From positions 310,001-374,000 of the forward strand of contig NZ_CP045920.1 in assembly GCF_009660225.1 (NCBI RefSeq): 64,000 nt of DNA, in the 5' to 3' direction. A program made the translations under genes and the position numbers. The notes under the pieces were generated by a model, which had not been told where the DNA came from, did not search any database, and worked only from the letters and a program-made list of their open reading frames with translations. This DNA is from Pseudactinotalea sp. HY158 (GTDB lineage Bacteria > Actinomycetota > Actinomycetes > Actinomycetales > Beutenbergiaceae). Shown piece by piece: positions 1-11,853 of the stretch. How positions within the stretch are numbered: the first letter of the stretch is position 1; the number at the start of each line of letters is the position of its first letter.

Positions 1-226
1 GTCCCATGGGCGGGAGGGGGCCCCGCGGCACGGTTCCGCGACCCCTGCCTCACCCCTAGGGGTGGCGAAAGACGCGCCCGAGCGGCCTAAGGTCGGTGCC
101 ATCGATCACGACCGGCCGGTGCCCGCGCCGTCGACCAGAGTCGACCATGGAGCCGCGGGGAACCGGTGAGGAAGCGGTGGGGAGGCCGCGCGGTCGACAC
201 AGCGGAAGACAAGGGCGGGACGAGTC

Positions 227-826
227 ATGACCGAAGCATGGAACCAGACCCCGAGGATTTTTCACGGCGACCTCGCGAAGGCAACGATCCGGGAGCTGCT
301 CACCGAGCTCGCACGGATCGAGGAGGCGGCGCGCAGACGCAACAACGGCGTCCCGCGGCCCGCCTCGGTCCAGCCGTCCGAGCGGGAACAGGCGATCCTC
401 ACGGCGCTGCGGGCGCGCCGACGAGGCCTCGGGTCCGAGTCGAGCATTCCGTCTCCCGAGATCGAGCATGAGCCGCCGATCGTGCTCGAGACGAGGCGGC
501 GACGCGGCCCGCGCGGCCCGATGTCCGGACGGCTCCGGTTCGACACGTTCCGGGTACCCGAGAAGCGGGTCCACCTGGCCGGGTGCGTCGATGCCTCGAC
601 CGGCAACGACGTGTTGCACACGCTGTTCCGCGCCGCCCGCGCGGGACGGACCCTCGTGGTCGATCTCGCGGGCGTCGACGTGCTCGACGAGGCCGGGGTC
701 GCCGTGCTCGACACCGTGCGCAAGCAGCTGCGGATGAGCAACGGCGACGTGCGGGTCGCGAACGCGCCCGCCGAGTTCCGGCTGCTGCTCCAGGACTTCG
801 CCACGGACAGTCGGCACGCGGGCTGA
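227..826 (+). CDS. STAS-domain protein (anti-sigma-factor antagonist-like)
   Basis: 199 aa. Residues about 105-190 have the layout of a STAS domain: a beta strand (VHLAGCVDAS), a central strand (TLVVDLAGVDVLDEAG) where the Asp/Ser-type phosphorylation loop of SpoIIAA-like proteins sits, then alternating helices and strands. The position usually occupied by the phosphorylated Ser/Thr reads LDEAG, so regulation by phosphorylation is doubtful. The N-terminal 100 residues are charged and helical (ELARIEEAARRR), matching no family I recognise. The gene stands alone, about 155 bp before the oxidoreductase operon. Its partner (an anti-sigma factor or kinase) is not in the window. Domain fairly sure; role inferred. 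Confidence 0.7.
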   Translation: MTEAWNQTPRIFHGDLAKATIRELLTELARIEEAARRRNNGVPRPASVQPSEREQAILTALRARRRGLGSESSIPSPEIEHEPPIVLETRRRRGPRGPMSGRLRFDTFRVPEKRVHLAGCVDASTGNDVLHTLFRAARAGRTLVVDLAGVDVLDEAGVAVLDTVRKQLRMSNGDVRVANAPAEFRLLLQDFATDSRHAG

Positions 827-982
827 GCCGGCCGCGCCGGGGACCGGAGGCCGGAACGCTCCTCCCCCTTCCCAACCGCGCGCGCCGGTGCCTACGGTGA
901 AAAGCATTCGAGGAGCCGGCGGATCCACGCGCTCGGTGTGCGCCGTCCGGTCCCTCATCCACACGCGATGGGCGAGGTTGAG

Positions 983-2791
983 ATGTCACAGACCGCTGCG
1001 GACTTCCTGTGTGACCGGCTGATCGAGTGGGGCGTGACCCGCATCTACGGGTATCCCGGCGACGGCATCAACGGGATCATGGGCGCGCTGGGCCGCCATA
1101 CCGACAAGCTCCGATTCATCCAGGTCCGGCACGAGGAGCAGGCGGCGTTCATGGCCTGCGCGCACGCGAAGTACACCGGCGAGGTCGGGGTCTGCATGGC
1201 CACCTCCGGCCCGGGCGCGATCCATCTGCTCAACGGCCTCTACGACGCCAAGCTCGACCATCAGCCGGTCGTGGCGATCATGGGGCAGACGTTCGCCCGC
1301 GCCATGGGCGGCAGCTTCCAGCAGGAGGTCAAGCTGCTCCAGCTCTACTCCGACGTCGCCTCCGCGTACTGCGAGCAGGTACCGGTGCCGTCCAGCGTCC
1401 GGCACATCCTCGACCGGGCGATGCGGACCGCGCAGTCGGAGCGGAGCGTGACGGCGATGATCGTCCCCGCCGACGTGCAGGACATGGACGCCGTCGAGGA
1501 GCAGCCGCAGGCGACCCACACGGTGCACACGGGCATCGGGTTCTGGCCGGGCCGCCGGATTCCGCGGCAACAGGACCTGCAGGCGGCCGCGGACATCCTC
1601 AACTCCGGCAGCAGGGTGGCCATGCTCGTCGGCGCCGGGGCCCTCGACGCAACCGAGGAGGTCATGCAGGTCGCCGACACCCTCGGCGCGGGGGTGGCCA
1701 AGGCGCTGCTCGGCAAGGCGGTCGTGCCCGATGACGTCCCCTACGTCACCGGCTCGATCGGGCTGCTCGGCACGAAGCCGAGTTGGGATCTCATGCAGGG
1801 TGCGGACACGCTCCTCATGGTCGGCTCCGGCTTCCCGTACTCGGAGTTCCTCCCGCCGATCGGCCAGGCGCGCGGCATCCAGATCGACGTCTCCGGGCGC
1901 ATGCTCTCCATCCGCTACCCGATGGAGCTGGCCCTCCTCGGCGATTCGAAGCAGACCCTCGCCGAGCTCCTTCCCCTGCTCGAACGCAAGGAGGATCGGT
2001 CCTGGCAGGAGAAGATCGTCGCCGCCGTCGAGGACTGGTGGAAGGTGATGGACTCCCGCGCGGAGCCCGCCGACGTCGACCGCGACGGGGACCGCCCCCG
2101 AGTGCGCCCGCAGGCGGTCTTCGCGGAACTGTCGCGGCAGCTGCCCGACCGGGCCGTGCTCTCCTCCGACTCCGGCTCGGCCGCGAACTGGTACGCCCGC
2201 CACATCCGGATGCGGACCGGGATGAAGGGCACCCTGTCCGGCAGCCTGGCCACGATGGTGCCCGGCATGGCCTACACGATCGCCGCCAAGTTCGCCTATC
2301 CGGACCGGGTCGCCGTGGGCACGATCGGCGACGGCGCCATGCAGATGGGCGGCATGGCCGAGCTCATCACGGCCGCGAAGTACTACCGCGACTGGGACGA
2401 TCCGCGGATGGTCGTCGTGGTGCTCAACAACGAGGATCTCAACCAGGTCACGTGGGAGCAGCGCGCGATGGCCGGGGACCCGAAGTTCGACGCCTCCCAG
2501 GACCTGCCGTACGTGCCCTACGCCGCATTCGCCGAGCTCATCGGGCTGCGGGGGATCACGGTCGACCGCTCCGCCCAGCTCGCGGGCGCGTTCGAGGAGG
2601 CCTTCGCCGCCGACCGGCCGGTGATCGTCGACGTCATGACCGATCCGGAGGAGCCGCCGATCCCGCCGCACATCACCTTCGCGCAGTTCGAGGCGCTCAC
2701 CACGTCGGTGCTCGCCGACCCGAAGGAGGGCGTGGCCGGCGCGGTCAACGCCGCCCGGGAGTTCGCCGAGGGCATCCTGCCGAGGCGATGA
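983..2791 (+). CDS. Thiamine-pyrophosphate-dependent enzyme, pyruvate oxidase/acetolactate synthase-like
   Basis: 602 aa, the usual length for the family. An N-terminal pyrimidine-binding domain carries the conserved Glu (RHEEQAAFMA) and the GPGAIHLLNGLYDA motif. A central FAD/nucleotide-type domain follows, then a C-terminal diphosphate-binding domain with GDGAMQMGG...NNEDLNQV, the GDG(X)nNN thiamine diphosphate signature. It should decarboxylate a 2-keto acid such as pyruvate; closest in style to PoxB-like 'TPP-requiring' actinobacterial proteins. ATG 983 (MSQTAADF) is chosen because GGCGAGG precedes it and the family begins there; ATG 968 and 938 are in frame upstream. First gene of a coupled operon running to 7944. 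Substrate uncertain. Confidence 0.85.
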   Translation: MSQTAADFLCDRLIEWGVTRIYGYPGDGINGIMGALGRHTDKLRFIQVRHEEQAAFMACAHAKYTGEVGVCMATSGPGAIHLLNGLYDAKLDHQPVVAIMGQTFARAMGGSFQQEVKLLQLYSDVASAYCEQVPVPSSVRHILDRAMRTAQSERSVTAMIVPADVQDMDAVEEQPQATHTVHTGIGFWPGRRIPRQQDLQAAADILNSGSRVAMLVGAGALDATEEVMQVADTLGAGVAKALLGKAVVPDDVPYVTGSIGLLGTKPSWDLMQGADTLLMVGSGFPYSEFLPPIGQARGIQIDVSGRMLSIRYPMELALLGDSKQTLAELLPLLERKEDRSWQEKIVAAVEDWWKVMDSRAEPADVDRDGDRPRVRPQAVFAELSRQLPDRAVLSSDSGSAANWYARHIRMRTGMKGTLSGSLATMVPGMAYTIAAKFAYPDRVAVGTIGDGAMQMGGMAELITAAKYYRDWDDPRMVVVVLNNEDLNQVTWEQRAMAGDPKFDASQDLPYVPYAAFAELIGLRGITVDRSAQLAGAFEEAFAADRPVIVDVMTDPEEPPIPPHITFAQFEALTTSVLADPKEGVAGAVNAAREFAEGILPRR

Positions 2792-2792
2792 G

Positions 2793-3332
2793 GTGAGTCG
2801 GATGAGCGTATGGACGACGCGGCCCGCCCGGGCGGGCGCGGGTGGGAGCGGCGTAGGGCGCAGCGCCGTCGGGCGCCGCGCCGAGGCCGCGGTGCCCGAG
2901 GTGGAACACCTCCTCGACCGGATGGTCGTCAACATCGAACACGGCCGGTTCGAACGCTCGCTCGCGGGCCTCACGGCCGCGGCCGCCGTGGTCACGGCCG
3001 TGGAGATCTACCTCGAGCACTACAAGGCGAGCTTCGGCAACAAGTGGATGTGGAGCCCGATCCTCGTGACCCCGCCCGTGGTGATCGCCGGGATCGCCGG
3101 GGTGTTCAGCCGCCGCTGGGCCAAGACCGCCCTGCCCGTGGCGTCCGCGGTCTTCGCGATCGACGGGCTCCTCGGGGAGTACTTCCACGCCCGCGGTGTC
3201 GCCCGCAAACCCGGGGGGTGGCGGCTCGCCTCCTTCAACGTGCCCACGGGGCCGCCCATCTCCGCGCCGGGCCTCATGGCCATGGTCGGGGGACTCGGCG
3301 TGCTCGCGGCCCTGCTCCGGCGGGAACGCTGA
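2793..3332 (+). CDS. Small multi-pass membrane protein of the oxidoreductase operon
   Basis: 179 aa with about three or four hydrophobic segments (AGLTAAAAVVTAVEIYL, WSPILVTPPVVIAGIAGVF, TALPVASAVFAIDGLL, ISAPGLMAMVGGLGVLAALL), preceded by a basic Gly/Ala/Arg N-terminus. GTG 2793 lies one base after the stop of the TPP enzyme; ATG 2802 is the alternative. No family recognised. Its position between the TPP enzyme and the gluconate-dehydrogenase-type pair suggests a membrane anchor or electron-transfer partner, since no cytochrome subunit is present. That role is inference. Confidence 0.7.
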   Translation: MSRMSVWTTRPARAGAGGSGVGRSAVGRRAEAAVPEVEHLLDRMVVNIEHGRFERSLAGLTAAAAVVTAVEIYLEHYKASFGNKWMWSPILVTPPVVIAGIAGVFSRRWAKTALPVASAVFAIDGLLGEYFHARGVARKPGGWRLASFNVPTGPPISAPGLMAMVGGLGVLAALLRRER

Positions 3333-3333
3333 G

Positions 3334-4080
3334 ATGCTCGACTTCTCCGATCCGGGCCACCTTCCGAATCTGCGCCCGCGCCGCCAGCCGCCGCACCCGG
3401 ACTGGTTGCCCAGGCAGCGCCGCGGCACCACTCCGCAGATGATCGGGCGCTACCCGGACTACGACGTGCTCGAGTCGGCCGACACGTGGGATGCGGCCAC
3501 GCGCGCGGTCGTGCTCGCGCGGCTCGCCGACCCGGGTCCGCTGCGGGTGTTCAACGAGGCGGAGGAGCGCACGCTCCGCCGGTTCTGCGACGACGTGCTC
3601 GCGCAGGACACCGAGCCCCGCGTGCCGGTGGCCGAGGGGATCGACGCCCGCCTCGCCGCGGGCACGACCGAGGGCTACCGCTACGCCGGCATGCCGGGCG
3701 ACCGGCTCGCGTGGCGGCTCCTGCTCGGCGGCCTCGACCACACCGCCCGGCAGCGGTTCGGCGTGAGCGAGTACGCCCGCGCCGACTGGCCCTCCCGGCG
3801 AGAGCTGCTCGACGCGCTCGCGGCCGGCGACCCGGACGAGATCCTCACGGGCGGCCCCTGGGGCAGGCTCGACGTGCCGCACGTGTGGACCCTGTGCATG
3901 AGCGCCGTGCTCGGCCTCTTCTACGGGCACCCCTGGGCGTGGAACGAGATCGGCTTCGGCGGGCCGGCCTACCCGCGCGGCTACATGCGGCTCGGGCCGA
4001 TGAGCGTGCGCGAGCCCGACGAGGCGGTGGCCGCCACCGCCGAGGACCCGGTGCGCACGAGTGAGGAGGAGGGGCTGTGA
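3334..4080 (+). CDS. Gluconate 2-dehydrogenase subunit 3 family protein
   Basis: 248 aa. The middle (FNEAEERTLRRFCDDVLAQ ... GTTEGYRYAGMPGDRLAWRLLLGGLDHTARQRFG) and the end (VWTLCMSAVLGLFYGHPWAWNEIGFGGPAYPRGY) match the small-subunit family that partners GMC flavoproteins in membrane-bound sugar and alcohol dehydrogenases. Many family members have a Tat signal peptide; this one begins with a Pro/Arg-rich stretch without a hydrophobic core, suggesting a cytoplasmic enzyme. ATG 3334 is one base past the previous stop and its own stop overlaps the next start (GTGA), so it is translationally coupled to the flavoprotein, as expected for a complex. Confidence 0.85.
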   Translation: MLDFSDPGHLPNLRPRRQPPHPDWLPRQRRGTTPQMIGRYPDYDVLESADTWDAATRAVVLARLADPGPLRVFNEAEERTLRRFCDDVLAQDTEPRVPVAEGIDARLAAGTTEGYRYAGMPGDRLAWRLLLGGLDHTARQRFGVSEYARADWPSRRELLDALAAGDPDEILTGGPWGRLDVPHVWTLCMSAVLGLFYGHPWAWNEIGFGGPAYPRGYMRLGPMSVREPDEAVAATAEDPVRTSEEEGL

Positions 4081-5786
4081 CGCTGCTCAAGGGGTCGGTC
4101 GGACCCGCGGAGAACGACTCGCGCTTCCTGCTCGACGTGCACTCCCGCAGGCTTCCGGGCGAGGACACGATGGCCCGCTACCGCGACGAGGACGAGGTCG
4201 ACCTCGTGGTCGTCGGCGCCGGGGCGGGCGGCTCCGTGCTTGCCCAGCGGCTCGCGCGGGCGGGCTGGCGCGTGGTCGTCCTCGAGGCCGGGCCGTTCTG
4301 GCATCCGGACGAGGACTGGGTCTCCGACGAGGCCGGCTCCCACCACCTGTACTGGAACGAGCCGCGCGTGATCGGCGGCACCGATCCCGTCGCGCTCGGC
4401 AAGAACAACTCCGGGCGCGGGGTCGGCGGCTCGATGGTGCACTACGCCGGCTACACCCCCCGGTTCCACCCCTCCGACTTCCGCACCCACTCGACCGACG
4501 GTGTGGGCGCCGACTGGCCGCTCGGCTACGGCGACCTGCGGGCCCACTACGAGCTGCTCGAACGGGAGCTGCCCGTCGCCGGCCAGAACTGGCCCTGGGG
4601 CGAGCCGCACACCTACCCCTCCTCCCCGCACCCGATCTCCGAGCAGGCCGCCGTGCTCTGGCGCGGCGCGGAGAAGCTCGGGATCGAGATGCGGGTCGGC
4701 CCCGTCGGGATCGTCAACGGCACGTTCGGCAACCGGCCCCACTGCATCTACCGCGGCTATTGCCTGCAGGGCTGCAAGGTGAACGCCAAGGCCAGCCCGT
4801 ACGTCACCCACCTGCCGGACGCGCTCGACCACGGCGTGGAGATCCGCGCCGACTCGATGGCCGCCCGGGTGGAGATCGACGATTCGACCGGCGCCGCGAT
4901 CGGGGTCGCCTACTTCTCGGGCGACGACGACACCGTGCACCTGCAGCGCGCGGCCACGGTCGCCGTGGCCGGCTACTCGATCGAGACCCCGCGGCTGCTG
5001 CTCGCCTCGACGTCCCGCCGTCATCCGAACGGGCTCGGCAACAACGAGGACCAGGTGGGCCGCTACGTCATGGTCCAGGGGGCGGCCCAGACCGCGGGCC
5101 GATTCGACCACGAGATCCGCCAGTACAAGGCGCCGCCGCCGGAGGTCTCCTCCGAGCAGTTCTACGAGACCGACCCGGCCCGGGACTTCGCCCGCGGCTT
5201 CTCCATCCAGACCGTGGGCCCGCTGCCGATCGGCTGGGCCGAGCACGTGCTCGCCGACGGGCACTGGGGCCGGGCGCTGCGGGAGTACATGCGCGACTAC
5301 AACCACTGGGCGACCATCGGGGTGTTGAACGAGCTGCTGCCGCATCCGGACAACCGGGTCACCCTGGCCGAGGAGGTGGATCGGCGCGGCCTGCCCGTGG
5401 CCCGATTCGACCACTCCCTCGGTGAGAACGACCGGCGCAACAACGCCTACTCCACCCGGGTCATCACCGAGATCCTCCAGGCCGCCGGCGCCCAGGACGT
5501 GCTCACGGTGCACCGCTTCGCCCACCTCGTCGGCGGGGCGCGCATGGGCGCGGCGCCGGCGGCGAGCGTCATCGATTCCGACCACCGGATCTGGGGGGTG
5601 CCGAACGTGTTCGTCTGCGACGGGTCGGTCATGCCGACCCAGGGCGCCGCCAACCCGGCGCTGACCATCATGGCGCTCGCCTCCCGGCTCGCCGAGCGGC
5701 TCACGGGCACCCGGCCCGGCGCGAGCGGGCGGCGAGGCGCTCGCCGGGGCGAGCTGCGTCGTCCACACGCCGGGGTCGGATCGTGA
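4077..5786 (+). CDS. GMC-family FAD oxidoreductase, gluconate dehydrogenase large-subunit type
   Basis: 569 aa. The FAD-binding Rossmann fold is at about residues 42-72 (VVVGAGAGGSVLAQRLARAG...VVLEAG). The second FAD motif is GRGVGGSMVHYAG. A cysteine-rich loop, CIYRGYCLQGCKV, is typical of the gluconate/2-keto-sugar dehydrogenase branch. The C-terminal GMC motif is DGSVMPTQGAANPALTIMALA. It should oxidise a sugar, sugar acid or alcohol and pass electrons via the subunit 3 protein. GTG 4077 overlaps the preceding stop by four bases, and its stop overlaps the next start in the same way. Substrate not readable from sequence. Confidence 0.9.
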   Translation: MTLLKGSVGPAENDSRFLLDVHSRRLPGEDTMARYRDEDEVDLVVVGAGAGGSVLAQRLARAGWRVVVLEAGPFWHPDEDWVSDEAGSHHLYWNEPRVIGGTDPVALGKNNSGRGVGGSMVHYAGYTPRFHPSDFRTHSTDGVGADWPLGYGDLRAHYELLERELPVAGQNWPWGEPHTYPSSPHPISEQAAVLWRGAEKLGIEMRVGPVGIVNGTFGNRPHCIYRGYCLQGCKVNAKASPYVTHLPDALDHGVEIRADSMAARVEIDDSTGAAIGVAYFSGDDDTVHLQRAATVAVAGYSIETPRLLLASTSRRHPNGLGNNEDQVGRYVMVQGAAQTAGRFDHEIRQYKAPPPEVSSEQFYETDPARDFARGFSIQTVGPLPIGWAEHVLADGHWGRALREYMRDYNHWATIGVLNELLPHPDNRVTLAEEVDRRGLPVARFDHSLGENDRRNNAYSTRVITEILQAAGAQDVLTVHRFAHLVGGARMGAAPAASVIDSDHRIWGVPNVFVCDGSVMPTQGAANPALTIMALASRLAERLTGTRPGASGRRGARRGELRRPHAGVGS

Positions 5787-6889
5787 CCGGCCGCGCCGCG
5801 CCGCGGATCGGGCAGGTCGCGACCTCGGTCTACGAGATCCCCACCGACGGGCCCGAGGCCGACGGCACGCTCGCGTGGTCCTCGACGACCCTCGTGCTCG
5901 TGCAGGTGAGCGCCGGCGGGCAGGTCGGCACCGGCTACACCTACGCCGCCGGGGCGTGCGCGGGAATCGTCGACGGCCCGCTCGCCGCCGCGCTGGCGGG
6001 GCGGGACGCGTTCGACGTGCCGGGAAGCTGGGAGGCGATGGTGCGGGCGATCCGCAACCTCGGCCGGCCGGGCCTGGCCTCGTGTGCGATCAGCGCCGTG
6101 GACACCGCCCTGTGGGACCTCAAGGCCCGGCTCCTCGGGGTCTCGCTCAGCCGGTTGCTCGGGCGCGCGCACGAGGCGGTGCCGATCTACGGCAGCGGCG
6201 GCTTCACCACCTACGACGATCACCGCACGCGTGCCCAGCTCGACCACTGGGTGCACGCCCTGGGCATCCCGCGGGTGAAGATCAAGATCGGCGAGTCGCG
6301 CGGGGAGCGCGTGGCGCGGGACCTGCACCGGGTGGCTCTCGCGCGCGCGGCGATCGGGGAGACGGCGGAGTTGTACGTCGACGCGAACGGCGCCTACGGG
6401 CGTAAGCAGGCGATCCGGGTCGGCCGGGCCCTCGCGGGTGAGCGCGCGACCTGGTTCGAGGAGCCCGTCTCCTCCGACGACCACGCGGGCCTGGCGCTCG
6501 TGCGCGACCGGGTCGACGTGGACGTCGCCGCCGGGGAGTACGGGTACGACCTGGCGTATTTCCGCCCCCTGGTGGACGTGGTCGACTGCGTGCAGATCGA
6601 CGTCACCCGGTGCGGCGGGATCACCGAATGGCTGCGGATCGCGGCGCTCGCGGCGGCGCACAACCTGCAGGTGTCCGGCCACTGCGCACCGCAGTTGCAC
6701 GCGCACGTGGCGGCGGCCGCGGTGAACCTGCGACACCTCGAGTATTTCCACGACCACGTGCGCATCGAGGCCCTGCTCTTCGACGGCGTGCTCGAGCCCC
6801 GGGGAGGCGCGTTGGTGCCCGACCAGGGGCGGGCGGGCAACGGGCTGGAGCTGCGATCCGCCGACGCCGAACGGTTCCGGACCGGGTGA
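5783..6889 (+). CDS. Enolase-superfamily enzyme (mandelate racemase / muconate lactonizing type)
   Basis: 368 aa. It has the N-terminal capping domain and a barrel with the superfamily residues in order: the KxK motif (VKIKIGES), metal ligands in YVDANGAYG, WFEEP and AAGEYGYD, and a catalytic-type His in SGHCAPQLHAH. The KxK Lys plus His pair fits sugar-acid dehydratases and the MR subgroup. A sugar-acid dehydratase would fit directly downstream of a sugar-oxidising flavoprotein, so the operon may oxidise a sugar to an acid and then dehydrate it (inference). GTG start overlaps the previous stop (GTGA). Substrate unknown. Confidence 0.85.
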   Translation: MTGRAAPRIGQVATSVYEIPTDGPEADGTLAWSSTTLVLVQVSAGGQVGTGYTYAAGACAGIVDGPLAAALAGRDAFDVPGSWEAMVRAIRNLGRPGLASCAISAVDTALWDLKARLLGVSLSRLLGRAHEAVPIYGSGGFTTYDDHRTRAQLDHWVHALGIPRVKIKIGESRGERVARDLHRVALARAAIGETAELYVDANGAYGRKQAIRVGRALAGERATWFEEPVSSDDHAGLALVRDRVDVDVAAGEYGYDLAYFRPLVDVVDCVQIDVTRCGGITEWLRIAALAAAHNLQVSGHCAPQLHAHVAAAAVNLRHLEYFHDHVRIEALLFDGVLEPRGGALVPDQGRAGNGLELRSADAERFRTG

Positions 6890-6945
6890 GCGACCCTCAG
6901 GGCACGGGAGACCGAACCGGTAGAGCAGCAGAGCAGGAGGATGAC

Positions 6946-7944
6946 ATGGACGCACGAAGGATCGCGGTGGTGACCGGCGGGACCGCGGGGGTCGGGCGGG
7001 CCGCCGTCCGGGAGTTCGCGGCGGCGGGCTACGACGTCGCCGTGCTCGCCCGCGGTCGGGCGGGGCTGGCGGGGGCGGTCGCCGACGTCGAGGCCCGGGG
7101 CGGGCGGGCGCTCGGCCTGCCCACCGACGTGTCCGACCACGGGGCGGTCGAGTCCGCGGCCCGCCGGGTCGAGGACGAGCTCGGGGAGATCGACGTGTGG
7201 GTCAACGTCGCGTTCGCCGGGTCGCTCGCACGCTCGTGGGACACCTCCCCCGAGGAGTTCCGGCGGATGACCGAGGTGAGCTACTTCGGCCAGGTGTACG
7301 GCACCCAGGCGGCGCTCGAGCACATGCGGCCGCGGGACCGCGGGGTCGTCATCAACGTGGGCTCGGCCCTCGCCTACCGCTCGATCCCGCTGCAATCGGC
7401 CTACTGCGGGGCGAAGCACGCCGTGGTGGGCTACACGCAGTCCGTGCGCACCGAGCTCCTCGCCGAGGGCAGCGGCGTGCAGCTGTGCATGGTGCAGTTG
7501 CCGGGGCTCAACACGTCGCAGTTCAACTGGAACCTCAACCGGATGGCCGGCCACCCGATGCCCGTGGCGCCGGTGTTCCAACCCGAGCTCGCCGGCCGGG
7601 GAATCGTGTTCCTGGCCGGGCATCCGCGCCGCAACCTGTGGGTGGGGTTCTCCACCGCCTACACGATCCTCGCCGAGCGGCTCATCCCCGGCCTGCTCGA
7701 CCGCTACCTCGGCCGGACCGGGATCGCCTCCCAGCAGGCCGATGAGGAGTTGCCGCGGTGGGGATCGAACGTGTTCGAGCCCGAGGACGACGAGGTCGAC
7801 CGCGGCTCCCACGGCGCATTCGATGCCACCGCGCATGCCCGCGACCCGTGGCTGTGGCTGACGATGAACCGCCGCGCGGTCGCAGCGGGGGCCGGGGCGG
7901 TCGCGGTCGCCGGCCTGCTGGCGCGGCGCGCGCGCCGCCGGTAG
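6946..7944 (+). CDS. SDR-family oxidoreductase with C-terminal hydrophobic tail
   Basis: 332 aa. Classical short-chain dehydrogenase: nucleotide motif VTGGTAGVGRAAV near residue 10, an active-site Ser (INVGSALAYRSI) and the YCGAKHA motif (YxxxK) at about residue 150. The C-terminal third is longer than usual and ends with a single hydrophobic helix followed by an Arg cluster (RRAVAAGAGAVAVAGLLARRARRR), which may anchor the enzyme to the membrane facing the cytoplasm. A strong AGGAGG ends six bases before ATG 6946. Last gene of the operon; a hairpin follows at once. Substrate unknown. Confidence 0.85.
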   Translation: MDARRIAVVTGGTAGVGRAAVREFAAAGYDVAVLARGRAGLAGAVADVEARGGRALGLPTDVSDHGAVESAARRVEDELGEIDVWVNVAFAGSLARSWDTSPEEFRRMTEVSYFGQVYGTQAALEHMRPRDRGVVINVGSALAYRSIPLQSAYCGAKHAVVGYTQSVRTELLAEGSGVQLCMVQLPGLNTSQFNWNLNRMAGHPMPVAPVFQPELAGRGIVFLAGHPRRNLWVGFSTAYTILAERLIPGLLDRYLGRTGIASQQADEELPRWGSNVFEPEDDEVDRGSHGAFDATAHARDPWLWLTMNRRAVAAGAGAVAVAGLLARRARRR

Positions 7945-7971
7945 CGGCTGCCCACTCGAGCGGGCAGCCGC
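7944..7971. terminator. Bidirectional hairpin between convergent genes
   Basis: A perfect 10-bp stem (GCGGCTGCCC paired with GGGCAGCCGC) closes an 8-base loop containing CTCGAG. It begins at the SDR stop codon and ends 13 bases before the stop of the convergent symporter gene. There is no U-tract on either side, which is common in GC-rich actinobacteria. The position fits a shared terminator. Confidence 0.6.
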
Positions 7972-7984
7972 CACCGGCGCGGGG

Positions 7985-9409
7985 TCAGACCTGCTGCAGT
8001 TCCCGCTCGTCGGCCGCGTCGGCCTCGGCGGCCTCGAGCTCGGCCTCCTCCTCGGCGGTGACGTCGGCCAGGAGGATCGCCTGGGATGGGCTGTCGTAGA
8101 CCGCCTGGTCGAGGATGCCCTCGCGCTTGGCCACGACGGCGGGTACGAGCGCCTGCCCGGCCACGTTCACGGCCGTGCGGCCCATGTCGAGGATCGGGTC
8201 GATCGCGAGCAGCAGCCCGACGCCGGCGAGCGGCAGCCCGAGGGTCGAGAGCGTCAGGGTGAGCATGACGAGCGCGCCGGTCAGGCCCGCGGTCGCGGCC
8301 GAACCGACGACCGAGACGAACGCGATGAGCACGAAGTCGGTCACGCCGAGGTCGATCCCGTAGAACTGCGCCACGAAGATCGCCGCGATCGCCGGGTAGA
8401 TGGCGGCGCAGCCGTCCATCTTGGTCGTGGCGCCGAACGGGGAGGCGAAGGAGGCGTAGGCGCGCGGCACGCCGAAGTTCCGCTCGATCACCCGCTGGGT
8501 CACGGGCATGGTGCCGAGCGAGGAGCGCGAGACGAACCCGAGCTGGATCGCGGGCCAGGCGCCCTTGAAGTACTGACGGATCGAGAGGCCGTTGGCCCGC
8601 AGCACGATCGGGTAGACCACGAACACCACGAGCGCGAGGCCGACGTAGATCGCGATGGCGAACGTGCCCAGCTGCGGCAGCAGCTCCCAGCCGTAGCGGG
8701 CGATCGCGTTGCCGATGAGGCCGAGCGTGCCGAGCGGGGCGAGCCGGATGATCCACCACAGCACGGTCTGCACGACGGCCAGCGCGGAGGCGTTGAAGTC
8801 GAGGAACGGCTTGGCCTTCTTCCCCGTGCGCAGGGCGGCGATGCCCACGACGAGCGCGATGACCACGATCTGCAGCGCCGCGAAGTTCACCCGGTCGCCG
8901 TTGACGCTCAGGCCGAGGAAGTTCGAGGGGACGAGCCCGTTCAGGAAGTCGAGCCACGAGCCGGAGCGGCCCGGGTCCTCGGCCGCGGCCTCGGTCACCG
9001 ACGTGTGATGACCCGGCTGGAACACGAGGCCGAGCCCGATGCCGATCGCCACCGACGCCGCCGCCGTGATCCCGAACCACAGCAGGGTCTGCCCCGCGAG
9101 TCGGGCGGCGTTCGTGAGCTTGCCCAGGTTCGCGATCGAGGCCACGATCGCCGTGAAGATCAGCGGCGGCACGAGGGCCTTGAGCAGCGTCACGAACGTC
9201 GAACCGATGGTGCTGAGCGCAACGAGGAGCCAGTTGTCGGCCGCCTCGCCCGCCGCGTCGACCGTCGGGCCGATCGCCAGGGCCGCCCAGCCGAGCAGCA
9301 GCCCGAACGCCAGGCCGAGGAGGATCTGCGTGCCGAAGGAGGGCAGTCTGAGGCGCCGCTTGGGTGGGACCGTATTGGTCGGGCTGGCGGTGCTGGCCGG
9401 GGTGGGCAT
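7985..9409 (-). CDS. Dicarboxylate/amino acid:cation symporter (DAACS family)
   Basis: 474 aa. About eight membrane helices with the family signatures: a Ser-rich re-entrant loop (SRSSLGTMPVTQRVI), the GATTKMDGCAAIYPAIAAIFVAQF segment carrying the substrate/cation site (typical form NMDG, here KMDG), and LADVTAEEEAELEAAEAD as an acidic cytoplasmic tail. It imports C4-dicarboxylates or acidic amino acids with Na+ or H+. ATG 9409 (MPTPASTAS) is chosen because it starts just before the first helix; the ORF is open further upstream. No SD of note. The 253 bp between it and the upstream MFS gene hold nothing I recognise. Confidence 0.88.
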   Translation of the reverse strand: MPTPASTASPTNTVPPKRRLRLPSFGTQILLGLAFGLLLGWAALAIGPTVDAAGEAADNWLLVALSTIGSTFVTLLKALVPPLIFTAIVASIANLGKLTNAARLAGQTLLWFGITAAASVAIGIGLGLVFQPGHHTSVTEAAAEDPGRSGSWLDFLNGLVPSNFLGLSVNGDRVNFAALQIVVIALVVGIAALRTGKKAKPFLDFNASALAVVQTVLWWIIRLAPLGTLGLIGNAIARYGWELLPQLGTFAIAIYVGLALVVFVVYPIVLRANGLSIRQYFKGAWPAIQLGFVSRSSLGTMPVTQRVIERNFGVPRAYASFASPFGATTKMDGCAAIYPAIAAIFVAQFYGIDLGVTDFVLIAFVSVVGSAATAGLTGALVMLTLTLSTLGLPLAGVGLLLAIDPILDMGRTAVNVAGQALVPAVVAKREGILDQAVYDSPSQAILLADVTAEEEAELEAAEADAADERELQQV

Positions 9410-9662
9410 GGCGAGAGGCCTTTCGTGGTCGGGGGGAACAAGCGTGCGGACGGCGCAGCTCGCGTCGCCGAGGTCCTCCCGTTGGTCATCGGCGGGGGCC
9501 CGGCTCGTCGCGGATTCGACGCTACGGCCGGCCACCGCGGCCGTCGACGGGGCGATCGGGAACGATCACGGGGTGAGACGACGGCCTGCCCGTGAGACGA
9601 ATCGGCCCGCGCGCGTCCGTGACTCCGGGATCTGCTATGACGCGCCCCGTGAGCTTCGGCGA

Positions 9663-10964
9663 TCAGCTACCGCGGAGGACCCCACGGTCGGCCGGCTCCC
9701 GGCGCACCTCGAGTCGGTGGCGCGAGGCCACGATCGGCGAGAGCAGCGTGATCGCGGTGCCCATGCCGAGGAAGAGCACGAGCGAGGCGGTCCAGCCGCC
9801 GGTGAGCTCGACGAGCGACCCGGCGACCGTGGGCGCGAGGGCCGAGATGAGGTAGCCCACGGTCTGGGTCATCCCGGAGACCTCCCGCACGGTGTTCACG
9901 TCGGGGGAACGGAGCGTGATGAGCGCGAGCAGCATCGCCATGACTCCGCCCTGACCGAAGCCGCCGATGATCATCCACGCGATGTACGCGCCGGGCGCGA
10001 GCAGCAGCCCGAGCGTGAACACGACCCAGGTGAGCGTGCACCCGAGTGCGAGGAATCGTCGACCTCCCGTGAGCCGAGCGGTGAGCACCGGCAGACTCAG
10101 TGCGCCGCCGATGCCCACGAGTTGGAAGATCGAGGCCGCCACCCCGGCCTGGGCCTCGCTCAGGCCGGCGAGGGCCGGAAGATAGGTGGGCATCCAGGCG
10201 GTATTCGCATAGAACAGCCCCGAGTGCAGGCCGAAGAACACCGCGAGCACCCAGGCCGCGGGCATGCGCCATGCATGTGCTCGCGGCGGTGGGCCATCGG
10301 GCAGTACCTCCTCCGGGCCGGCCTTGAGGAGGTAGAAGCAGGCGGCGGCGAGGATGGGCAGGGCCCAGACGGCCAGCGCCCACCGCCAGCCGATCCACAT
10401 CGCCAGCGGCACGGTGAGCGCCGCCGCCACGGCCGCGCTCGCCGTGAGGGCCGCCGTGGACACGGCGATCATCGGTCCCTGCCGCCTCGGGAAGTCCCGC
10501 CGCACCACGGTGGGGTTGAGCACGTTCCCGGCGGTGATCGCGACCCCGATGCCGGCGGAGGTCGCGAGCACCCACCAGGCCGGACCGAACGGCCGCACGG
10601 CCACGAGCACCGCCAACAGCAGCAGGCTCGTCACGAGCACCCGGTTGATCCCGAACCGGCGCGCCGCCCCGGCCGCGAATGTCGCCGCCAGGCCGAAGCA
10701 GACGACCGGCAGCGAGGCCAGCAGGCCGGCCATCGTGGCCGTCAACTGGATATCGGCCCGCAACTCCGGCAGCACCGCGGCGATCGAGGTGATCGGCGAG
10801 CGCAGCGACATGCCCACCGCGACGATCGCCACGGCCGTCGCGATCCCGGGCCCCATCGCGTGCGTCACACCACGCGTCCGCGACTCGCCGCCGGGCCTCG
10901 GCCCCGTCGCCCCCGTCGACCCTGTGCTCGTCGCTCCCGTACCGGGACCGGATCGAACCGTCAC
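9663..10964 (-). CDS. MFS transporter, CynX/NimT type
   Basis: About 433 aa with twelve predicted membrane helices. The early segment AVGMSLRSPITSIAAVLPEL and RRDFPRRQGPMIAVSTAALT resemble the CynX (cyanate permease)/NimT (2-nitroimidazole transporter) branch of the major facilitator superfamily. The start is uncertain: GTG 10964, GTG 10868 and ATG 10856 are all possible, and the extra N-terminal residues are Gly/Thr-rich and unlikely to be conserved, so a start near 10868 is attractive. Substrate cannot be deduced; it stands alone on this strand. Confidence 0.8.
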   Translation of the reverse strand: MTVRSGPGTGATSTGSTGATGPRPGGESRTRGVTHAMGPGIATAVAIVAVGMSLRSPITSIAAVLPELRADIQLTATMAGLLASLPVVCFGLAATFAAGAARRFGINRVLVTSLLLLAVLVAVRPFGPAWWVLATSAGIGVAITAGNVLNPTVVRRDFPRRQGPMIAVSTAALTASAAVAAALTVPLAMWIGWRWALAVWALPILAAACFYLLKAGPEEVLPDGPPPRAHAWRMPAAWVLAVFFGLHSGLFYANTAWMPTYLPALAGLSEAQAGVAASIFQLVGIGGALSLPVLTARLTGGRRFLALGCTLTWVVFTLGLLLAPGAYIAWMIIGGFGQGGVMAMLLALITLRSPDVNTVREVSGMTQTVGYLISALAPTVAGSLVELTGGWTASLVLFLGMGTAITLLSPIVASRHRLEVRREPADRGVLRGS

Positions 10965-11121
10965 CGCTGCTCCCTCGAACTCGTGAAGCCCGGCCGCGCC
11001 GCCCGGGATCGGGCCCGGACCTGGGCGCGGTCATCCTCCCCCGAGGCCGCGCCCGGAAGCGAACGGTTGCGGTTCGTTGCCAGGCTCAGCTTGTTCGACC
11101 CACTCGGCCCACTCGTCCCAC

Positions 11122-11853
11122 TCAGCCTGCTCGACCGGCGAGGAGGCCCGCGAGCAGCTCGGGGCGATTCGTGATGATCGCGTCCACCCCGGCCGCGAGC
11201 GCGCGTCGCCACTGCTCGGGCTCGTCGAGGGTCCACACGCTCACCCGCAGCCCCGCCGCGTGCGCCCGCGCCACGAAGGCCGGGTCGCCCGCGAGCGCCG
11301 AGCCGCGTGGGTTGATCCCACCGGCCGCGAGCTCCCGGGCCGTGCCCAGGTCCGCCGGCAGCTCGTGCACGAGCAGCTCGCGCCGCAGGTCCGGGGCGAG
11401 CTCGCGGCACCGCGTGAGGGTAGGCACCGAGAAGCTCTGCACCCGCACCCGGCCCGCCAGGCCCGCCTCCCGTATCCCCGTGAGGACGACGCTCAGCGCC
11501 TCCGCCTCCCAGTCGCCCTTGATCTCGAGCAGCAGGCCGATGCCGGGCCGCGCGGTGAGGAAGTCGAGCACGTCGGTGAACAGCGGCACGCGTTGCCCGG
11601 CGAACGCCGGGGCGAACCAGGAACCTGCGTCGAGGGCGGCCAGGCCCGCGACATCGAATGCGGCGAGGGGACCGGTGCCGTCGGTCGTCGCGTCGACGGT
11701 CTCGTCGTGCATGACCACCGCGGTGCCGTCGGCGAGCTGCTGGAGGTCGATCTCGACGGCGTCGGCGCCGACCCGCCAGGCGGCCTCGAGCGCCGCGAGC
11801 GTGTTCGGCGGCGCCACCTGCGAATTGCCGCGATGGGCGATGATCTCGGTCAT
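11122..11853 (-). CDS. Glycerophosphodiester phosphodiesterase
   Basis: 243 aa. GDPD-domain TIM barrel with the catalytic elements: IAHRGN at residues 4-9 (first catalytic His with Arg), EIDLQQLADGTAVVMHDE (metal-binding Glu/Asp and second catalytic His), EIKG (metal Glu) and VSVWTLDEPE near the end. No signal peptide, so a cytoplasmic form that hydrolyses glycerophosphodiesters to glycerol-3-phosphate and an alcohol. ATG 11853 gives the standard family length. Divergent from the next gene with about 160 bp between. Confidence 0.92.
   Translation of the reverse strand: MTEIIAHRGNSQVAPPNTLAALEAAWRVGADAVEIDLQQLADGTAVVMHDETVDATTDGTGPLAAFDVAGLAALDAGSWFAPAFAGQRVPLFTDVLDFLTARPGIGLLLEIKGDWEAEALSVVLTGIREAGLAGRVRVQSFSVPTLTRCRELAPDLRRELLVHELPADLGTARELAAGGINPRGSALAGDPAFVARAHAAGLRVSVWTLDEPEQWRRALAAGVDAIITNRPELLAGLLAGRAG

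Follow-up and report, generated by a model that had tools for sequence, protein, structure and literature searches.

The window, that is, the whole stretch of 64,000 nucleotides that was analysed, contains a cluster of six open reading frames, encoding a TPP-dependent enzyme (TPP), an unnamed membrane protein (MP), a subunit 3-like protein (S3), a GMC flavoprotein (GMC), an enolase-type enzyme and an SDR (Table 1). These six had been called by an earlier, sequence-only reading of the DNA; all were found, and all are co-directional on the plus strand. Four junctions had been described as 1-base gaps or GTGA overlaps, which was correct when read from the sequence. Specifically, TPP and MP are separated by a 1-base gap if MP starts at the GTG at 2793 (an ATG is also present at 2802), MP and S3 by a further 1-base gap, while the S3/GMC and GMC/enolase junctions are GTGA overlaps. 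The spacer between the enolase-type gene and the SDR gene measures 56 bp, and GGAGG precedes the ATG of the latter. No account of this six-gene set turned up in searches of the published literature, and we know of no biochemistry for MP, S3 and GMC proteins of this kind.

Table 1. Coordinates and assignment of the six genes (positions within the window)
Gene product	Position	Strand	Basis
TPP-dependent enzyme, pyruvate-oxidase-like	983-2791	+	NCBIfam PRK08273
MP, unnamed membrane protein, proposed electron-accepting subunit	2793-3332	+	Conservation, predicted structure, linkage
S3, gluconate 2-dehydrogenase subunit 3 family	3334-4080	+	PF13618; signal peptide not seen
GMC flavoprotein, FAD glucose dehydrogenase alpha-like	4077-5786	+	PF00732/PF05199; C223/C229/C233; H483/N526
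Enolase superfamily, mandelate-racemase-type, near PDB 3cyj (function unknown)	5783-6889	+	MR_MLE N and C domains
SDR, PRK07109 subfamily, C-terminal hydrophobic tail	6946-7944	+	NCBIfam model, tail

GMC carries a conserved [3Fe-4S] ligand motif, and neither S3 nor GMC a detectable export signal

S3 matched PF13618 with 49.7 bits (cut-off 23.4), and the window GMC matched the models of both its N- and C-domains. The three cysteines C223, C229 and C233 of GMC (C-x5-C-x3-C) aligned with Cys212, Cys218 and Cys222 of the alpha subunit of the Burkholderia cepacia FAD glucose dehydrogenase (BcGDH), which are [3Fe-4S] ligands, and H483 and N526 aligned with its catalytic His476 and Asn519. The window genes and the B. 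cepacia enzyme (alpha-gamma-beta; PDB 6a2u, 8grj) thus have in common a GMC alpha subunit, the spacing of the [3Fe-4S] ligands, the His/Asn pair and a small partner subunit. They differ in that the window genes include neither a detected Tat signal nor a gene for a tri-heme cytochrome c, MP being present instead, and in that Ile224 of the window GMC stands where Cys213 of BcGDH forms the gamma-alpha disulfide. The cysteine motif was present in GMC at 94 of 95 MP loci, the sole miss being a fragment of 315 residues. It was also present in some GMC proteins without MP, which counts against the reading favoured below. In two loci (L019 and L118), S3 and GMC were fused as a single open reading frame.

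FAD glucose dehydrogenases of the BcGDH kind are described as exported via the Tat pathway and coupled to a cytochrome c subunit (PMC6719666); enzymes of this kind have been studied for glucose sensors. For the window proteins, a Tat signal had been noted as missing. Indeed, inspection by eye revealed no hydrophobic stretch at the N-termini of S3 and GMC, and among the relatives an N-terminal 19-residue segment above 1.6 on the Kyte-Doolittle scale was found in 0 of 87 S3 and 0 of 91 GMC loci. Four S3 rows did contain an RR-like string, each lacking an N-terminal hydrophobic segment. Export of S3-GMC was rejected on the basis of these counts.

A cytochrome c had been reported absent as well. 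The CxxCH motif occurred in none of the six genes, nor in the STAS gene upstream, and at 95 MP loci, where genes were called with a home-made program that overlooks short ones, none of the called genes within 5 kb of GMC contained it. A cytochrome c acceptor encoded by adjoining genes was rejected for these reasons. Beyond the 5-kb zone, a cytochrome b/c gene is located ~6 kb upstream in L019; likewise farther off, L024 has oxidase genes, and L144 and L146 have genes of the cytochrome c3 family.

MP is linked to S3-GMC

In 77 of 80 loci anchored on GMC, MP directly preceded S3-GMC and shared its strand, as counted in stop-to-stop frames, which were chosen since the home-made gene caller had overlooked MP and S3 at several loci. 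The three exceptions comprise L039 and L093, which are cut by a contig end, and L028, with only a short tblastn match. MP was present in 13 of 296 Actinomycetota genomes, and when these were anchored on MP a GMC match was located 0.65-1.03 kb away in all 13, a distance that approximates the length of S3. Furthermore, in each of the 25 plasmid records that carry MP, the coordinates place GMC downstream on the same strand. Against the reading favoured below, S3-GMC also occurs in other settings: a Cys-rich DUF2769 protein takes the place of MP in two genomes, neither MP nor an annotated cytochrome adjoins S3-GMC in the plasmid loci L142 and L143, and MP was not found in 17 of 43 plasmid records with GMC at E 1e-80. 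On a quick tree, from which 34 Mycobacterium-group loci were excluded, the MP label changed 4 times, compared with 21.9 times in shuffles.

Conceivably, MP could be a half-transporter for the substrate or product, its single-repeat forms acting as dimers and its doubled forms as fusions. MP is a small repeat with a doubled form, and transporters are often found in catabolic operons, but MP keeps an almost constant place immediately ahead of S3-GMC, unlike the other enzymes, whose positions shift, and we regard this explanation as highly improbable.

Two invariant histidines in MP

With the Ser codon at 2805 taken as residue 1, the invariant histidines of MP are H72 (codon 3018-3020) and H128 (codon 3186-3188). 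In ungapped alignment rows, H72 was conserved in 83 of 83 and H128 in 84 of 85, both were kept in 41 of 41 in a further count, and all four histidines were invariant in the tandem-duplicated relatives (4 of 4 doubled forms). As to the rows used, L022 is not part of A2, and L003 was trimmed; A4 excludes rows with stops, such as L100, and A5 excludes plasmid rows. The structural model of MP (mean pLDDT 83) comprises helices at residues 21-45, 50-72, 80-101, 103-134, 138-148 and 153-170, with H72 at the end of predicted helix 50-72 and H128 inside predicted helix 103-134. Gly121, Gly124 and Gly131 are invariant and lie within 80 degrees of a conserved face that also bears H128. In addition, E67, E71, H72, R130, N145 and a GPPxxAP stretch are highly conserved. 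Two invariant histidines near the conserved face of their helices, and four in tandem forms, would fit a classical heme b pattern. As judged from its sequence, MP is probably a small b-type cytochrome, in which the two histidines would most likely hold one heme b, and those of the tandem-duplicated versions two.

No known family could be recognised for MP, the searches having given weak or generic matches. Pfam assigned no family to the window MP at E 0.001, and at E up to 1 it returned stray weak matches for 48 MP members (best DUF1206, E 0.0047, in one member). A PDB profile search gave a single match at E 0.73, Foldseek gave nothing at E <0.001, and the rows listed by Foldseek and VIA-align were generic helical bundles, with copper-storage proteins on top at a Z of ~11, which is under the tool's informative level for bundles. 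Cytochrome b families were absent from the Foldseek and VIA-align rows listed for MP.

That no known heme fold was recognised by Foldseek or VIA-align counts against the reading favoured below and would suit a heme-free MP that anchors S3-GMC and binds quinone directly, its histidines and nearby polar residues forming a quinone or metal site. The near-fixed linkage of MP and GMC fits this idea too, as does the high conservation of the residues listed above, from E67 to the GPPxxAP stretch, but the two invariant histidines near conserved helix faces (moments small), and their number of four in the tandem forms, argue for the b-type cytochrome. We consider the heme-free alternative unlikely. Heme supply was inspected in 15 genomes, 13 with MP and two with DUF2769 in its place. 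Each of the 13 MP genomes had a ferrochelatase or a heme oxidase; ferrochelatase was found in 12 of the 15, and heme oxidase in G115, G164 and G260, so that absence of heme supply was of no use as a test against heme. The AhbD model gave matches over its cut-off in 6 of the 15 genomes, all in family f41.

TPP, enolase-type enzyme and SDR as frequent neighbours

The TPP enzyme exceeded the cut-off of the NCBIfam equivalog PRK08273 (944.6 versus 724 bits) and carries a GDG...NN motif and an N-terminal Glu. Its closest PDB relative was the pyruvate oxidase PoxB (3ey9, 288 bits), whose architecture it shares, but with 383.6 bits it remained far under the cut-off of 792 of the PoxB model PRK09124 and is assigned to PRK08273, whose model names no reaction. 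In the enolase-type enzyme, K166/K168, D200, E226, E252, D273/H300 and E320 match the mandelate racemase subgroup pattern, which consists of KxK, three acidic metal ligands, an Asp-His dyad and a final Glu. This enzyme stayed below the NCBIfam cut-offs for gluconate/galactonate dehydratase (103 of 750 bits) and talarate/galactarate dehydratase (188.3 of 500 bits), and for its relative 3CYJ one paper was found, which deals with a matching algorithm. The SDR exceeded the NCBIfam cut-off of the PRK07109 subfamily (408.3 versus 264 bits), and its hydrophobic C-terminal tail ends in Arg. None of the named dehydratase and pyruvate-oxidase models reached its cut-off in the window genes, which counts against the reading favoured below; the succession of oxidation, dehydration and cleavage suggested earlier is a putative one.

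In the relatives, TPP, enolase, SDR and GH15 were frequent neighbours of MP-S3-GMC in shuffled order. That the six families belong together had been proposed for the window, and they proved to be co-conserved across several phyla, the opposite of the outcome that was to speak against their grouping. GH15 was located near many relatives and was trehalase-like in the one tested. The input to the pathway had been thought to be a sugar acid; on this point the GH15 neighbours hint instead at a free aldose.

These neighbours could also be members of a co-regulated stress island, in which case MP-S3-GMC would be one enzyme, and TPP, enolase, SDR and GH15 would catalyse separate reactions. In line with this idea, TPP, enolase and SDR vary in order and strand between loci, none of the three is present in 17 of 80 loci (9 of the 49 loci of at least 19 kb), and sensory rhodopsin transducers, ferritin-like proteins, Mn catalase and PRC-barrel proteins appear in single loci. 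Against it, at least two of the three are present in 38 of the 49 loci of at least 19 kb, and one arrangement, TPP-enolase-MP-S3-GMC, is found again in Bradyrhizobium, Deinococcus peraridilitoris, Nitrobacter, Komagataeibacter and Rhizobium. The stress island, which is compatible with MP, S3 and GMC forming one enzyme, seems to us rather unlikely, though somewhat less so than a heme-free MP.

A putative cytoplasmic sugar dehydrogenase linked to quinone

By a narrow margin, we favour the view that MP-S3-GMC is a cytoplasmic FAD/[3Fe-4S] sugar dehydrogenase that passes electrons via heme b in MP to quinone, with the enolase-type enzyme, TPP and SDR acting downstream. MP, S3 and GMC would be the three subunits of a membrane-bound enzyme with its catalytic part in the cytoplasm. 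GMC would act on a sugar, the most likely reaction being the oxidation of glucose at C1, as in its structural relative, and electrons would run from FAD over the putative [3Fe-4S] cluster to MP and on to quinone. MP would stand where FAD glucose, gluconate and fructose dehydrogenases have a multi-heme cytochrome c. Such a replacement had been suggested before, and the near-fixed linkage, the retained [3Fe-4S] motif and the two invariant histidines, placed inside a predicted helix or where one ends, lend it support at the level of sequence. The enolase-type enzyme could remove water from the aldonic acid and so yield a 2-keto-3-deoxy acid; this acid, or pyruvate derived from it, could be the substrate of the PoxB-like TPP enzyme, and the SDR could handle a carbonyl product. 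With GH15 supplying glucose in many relatives, the module as a whole may belong to an oxidative route for glucose or trehalose. With respect to the membrane side, the mean net charge of MP was 5.95 for the N-terminus, loop 2 and the C-terminus together and 4.34 for the conserved loops 1 and 3 together. Under the positive-inside rule, this difference weakly places the histidine end outside and speaks against a cytoplasmic enzyme.

The gluconate, 2-ketogluconate, sorbitol and fructose dehydrogenases of acetic acid bacteria have an FAD-containing large subunit in a ubiquinone-linked, multi-subunit membrane complex (PMC9171043). This layout resembles the proposed MP-S3-GMC complex, and the fructose dehydrogenase large subunit was the next best PDB match to the window GMC. 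The acetic acid bacterial enzymes differ in having a cytochrome c medium subunit and in facing the periplasm. BcGDH was previously likened to quinol:fumarate reductase (PMC6719666). With its FAD, Fe-S and membrane b-type cytochrome, this reductase resembles the proposed complex; it differs in substrate and flavoprotein family, and its membrane subunit was not among the MP matches listed.

The MP clade appears to break both rules, Tat export and the link to cytochrome c, and yet retains the iron-sulfur wire. If the proposal is true, a type of sugar dehydrogenase moves from the outer to the inner side of the cell membrane. More tentatively, and with the balance tilting slightly against it, MP might be the founder of a new family of minimal b-type cytochromes in the membrane, with a single heme in each repeat and with mono-heme and tandem di-heme forms. 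Through this family, a sugar dehydrogenase of the exported, cytochrome c-linked FAD/[3Fe-4S] type would become a quinone reductase of the cytoplasm with a fumarate reductase-like layout, and would form the core of a module that is mobile, spans phyla and burns trehalose or glucose by a non-phosphorylating, quinone-linked route. MP, annotated as 'hypothetical', gains a partner and a cofactor prediction, and the unassigned families PRK08273, the 3cyj-type enolase and PRK07109 are tied to one module.

The six-gene cluster and its neighbours

The host genome is a single contig of 3.65 Mb, of which the window covers positions 310001-374000. The six genes at 983-7944 run in one direction, and their successive junctions are 1 base, 1 base, a GTGA overlap, a second GTGA overlap and 56 bp. 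The families, co-direction and junctions described in the sequence-only reading were thus confirmed from open reading frames and family matches. PF13618 had a single match at E 0.001 in the host genome. The enolase-type enzyme is close to PDB 3cyj and carries residues of the mandelate-racemase type; the TPP enzyme is PoxB-like, yet falls outside the PoxB model. The STAS-domain gene upstream might suggest that the operon is under stress control.

Coordinates of the cluster and of features noted at other loci
Location	Feature	Coordinates	Strand	Remark
Window	STAS-domain gene	227-826	+	anti-sigma-antagonist-like C-terminal part; 156 bp 5′ of the TPP start (983)
Window	TPP enzyme	983-2791	+	gene 1; family match, PRK08273
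Window	MP	2793-3332	+	gene 2; unnamed membrane protein, no Pfam family
Window	S3 (subunit 3)	3334-4080	+	gene 3; family match, PF13618
Window	GMC flavoprotein	4077-5786	+	gene 4; family match
Window	Enolase-superfamily enzyme	5783-6889	+	gene 5; family match, mandelate-racemase type
Window	SDR	6946-7944	+	gene 6; family match, PRK07109
Window	Sodium:dicarboxylate symporter family gene	7988-9535	-	SDF, 329 bits; convergent with SDR
L019 (Deinococcus)	Small VKOR-like membrane protein	7250-7648		below Pfam cut-off; between SDR and MP
L019	S3-GMC single ORF	8095-10692
L022 (Granulicella plasmid)	GMC	8905-10582		split into two CDS in the annotation; reading frame apparently broken
L026 (Sphingomonas plasmid)	Alpha/beta hydrolase	7577-8923		weak PF13618-like C-terminal half (E 0.009); beside GMC, without MP
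L121	Cys-rich DUF2769 protein	9387-9875	-	directly before S3-GMC, in MP's place
L122	Cys-rich DUF2769 protein	5895-6227	+	directly before S3-GMC, in MP's place
L142	S3-GMC	5472-7530		adjoined by neither MP nor annotated cytochrome
L143	S3-GMC	5432-7608		adjoined by neither MP nor annotated cytochrome
L019	Sensory rhodopsin transducer or bacteriorhodopsin gene	10755-11141		plasmid; near module
L020	Same	10792-11178		plasmid; near module
L021	Same	32-907		plasmid; near module
L144	Same	4157-4534		plasmid; near module

Conservation around the GMC flavoprotein

Among 59 genomes (the host and 58 relatives), a close GMC was present in only one other, G045 (64% identity), which indicates that the module is patchy; the G045 neighbourhood held all six families. 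A GMC profile scan of genome contigs gave at least 594 pattern matches and at least 576 confirmed relatives. The best 80 were taken, of which 36 were Mycobacterium, Mycolicibacter or Mycolicibacillus by title, and the set is therefore uneven. In these 80 loci, S3 was present in 79 and MP in 77. Two of the three lacking an MP profile match are truncated at the end of the contig (L039, L093), and the third (L028) has a short tblastn match only. With bit thresholds that we set ourselves, TPP was found nearby in 37 of the loci; enolase was a neighbour in 53, GH15 in 50 and SDR in 47. The 49 loci of at least 19 kb contained MP in 48, S3 in 49, TPP in 23, enolase in 36, SDR in 34 and GH15 in 33; two or more of TPP, enolase and SDR occurred in 38, and all three together with MP and S3 in 15. 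TPP, enolase and SDR were all absent from 17 of the 80 loci (9 of the 49). Among the matches listed, the names of triplet-bearing records pointed to Actinomycetota, Dormiibacterota, Chloroflexota, Gemmatimonadota (MAGs in part), Deinococcota, Acidobacteriota and Pseudomonadota. A search of open-licence papers found no description of the gene set.

Linkage of MP to GMC

To avoid selection by GMC, 296 Actinomycetota genomes were searched with an MP profile. MP was present in 13, and in all 13 a GMC match lay 0.65-1.03 kb away, a spacing of about the length of S3. On plasmids, a query of doubled MP matched 25 records, and in every one the coordinates placed GMC on the same strand and downstream of MP. 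The converse linkage was weaker. Of 43 plasmid records with GMC at E 1e-80, MP was found in 25 by the doubled query and in one more (Frondihabitans, L021) by neighbourhood profile, and was not found in 17, among them L142 and L143. GMC exceeded 400 bits in 16 of the 296 genomes, 13 of them with MP; in the remaining three, GMC lay at a contig end (G322) or a Cys-rich DUF2769 protein preceded S3 (G105, G192). In L121 and L122, from two genomes of family f41, such a protein stands directly before S3-GMC and is possibly an alternative electron acceptor. Of 19 loci whose GMCs are more distant (L108-L110, L123-L138), none has MP, and the clade-specific S3 profile matched weakly in three. In a quickly built GMC tree (85 rows), whose forks are partly open and some of whose branches are long, the MP label required 4 changes, versus 21.9 in shuffles. 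The suggestion that MP stands in for a cytochrome c is well supported by linkage.

Predicted structure of MP

AlphaFold2 with 41 MP rows gave a helical model (mean pLDDT 83, pTM 0.71) with predicted helices at 50-72, 80-101, 103-134 and 153-170, besides two that are shorter or N-terminal; structure searches gave no standout fold relative. Two histidines are invariant: H72 closes one predicted helix, and H128 lies in another, 25 residues from its start. Both occurred in 41/41 rows of this set, and in ungapped rows H72 was present in 83/83 and H128 in 84/85. Two short f41 forms (L111, L114), read by eye, keep both. Each lies less than 30 degrees from the conserved face of its own helix, the conservation moments being small, and in an up-down bundle they would share one end and lie about equally deep. 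Tandem-duplicated MPs, with four invariant histidines (4/4), occur in Granulicella, Bradyrhizobium, Burkholderia multivorans and Deinococcus peraridilitoris. This pattern fits one bis-His heme b per repeat. Heme synthesis capacity or a heme oxidase was found in 13/13 MP genomes, which is compatible with, but no proof of, heme in MP. Net loop charge was 5.95 for the N-terminus, loop 2 and C-terminus versus 4.34 for loops 1 and 3; this weakly favours the histidine end outside, which counts against that end directly touching a GMC in the cytoplasm.

Comparison with glucose dehydrogenase and proposed electron path

As described in PMC6719666, the alpha subunit of the FAD glucose dehydrogenase of Burkholderia cepacia (BcGDH) binds a [3Fe-4S] cluster through Cys212, Cys218 and Cys222, forms a disulfide to the small subunit through Cys213 and has His476/Asn519 as its likely catalytic pair; the small subunit bears a Tat signal, and a membrane subunit containing three heme c accepts the electrons. 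The window GMC reproduces the cluster spacing (C223/C229/C233) and the catalytic pair (H483/N526), but has Ile in place of Cys213. The Cys spacing occurred in 94 of 95 MP loci, the exception being a 315-aa fragment, but it extends beyond the MP clade, as 107 of all 120 GMC loci have it. Unlike in BcGDH, none of 87 S3 and 91 GMC loci showed an N-terminal hydrophobic segment, and in 95 MP loci no called gene with CxxCH lay less than 5 kb from GMC. S3 and GMC form a single ORF in L019 and L118, suggesting that they act together.

Electrons would probably pass from sugar via FAD, [3Fe-4S] and MP to quinone, with the catalytic part probably in the cytoplasm. BcGDH was earlier likened to fumarate reductase, in which a di-heme cytochrome b forms the membrane part (PMC6719666); MP would be a membrane part of that kind. 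Heme, quinone, membrane side, substrate and pathway are all predictions for this module. The one GH15 example tested had a trehalase-like N-terminal domain; an aldose 1-epimerase is annotated adjoining GMC in L021, and a gene cluster resembling this enzyme, labelled by eye, occurs in 10 loci. These neighbours suggest that the input is a free aldose, probably glucose. The window cluster lacks GH15, and three GH15 matches lie elsewhere in the host genome. On four plasmids, genes for a sensory rhodopsin transducer or bacteriorhodopsin are found close to the module.
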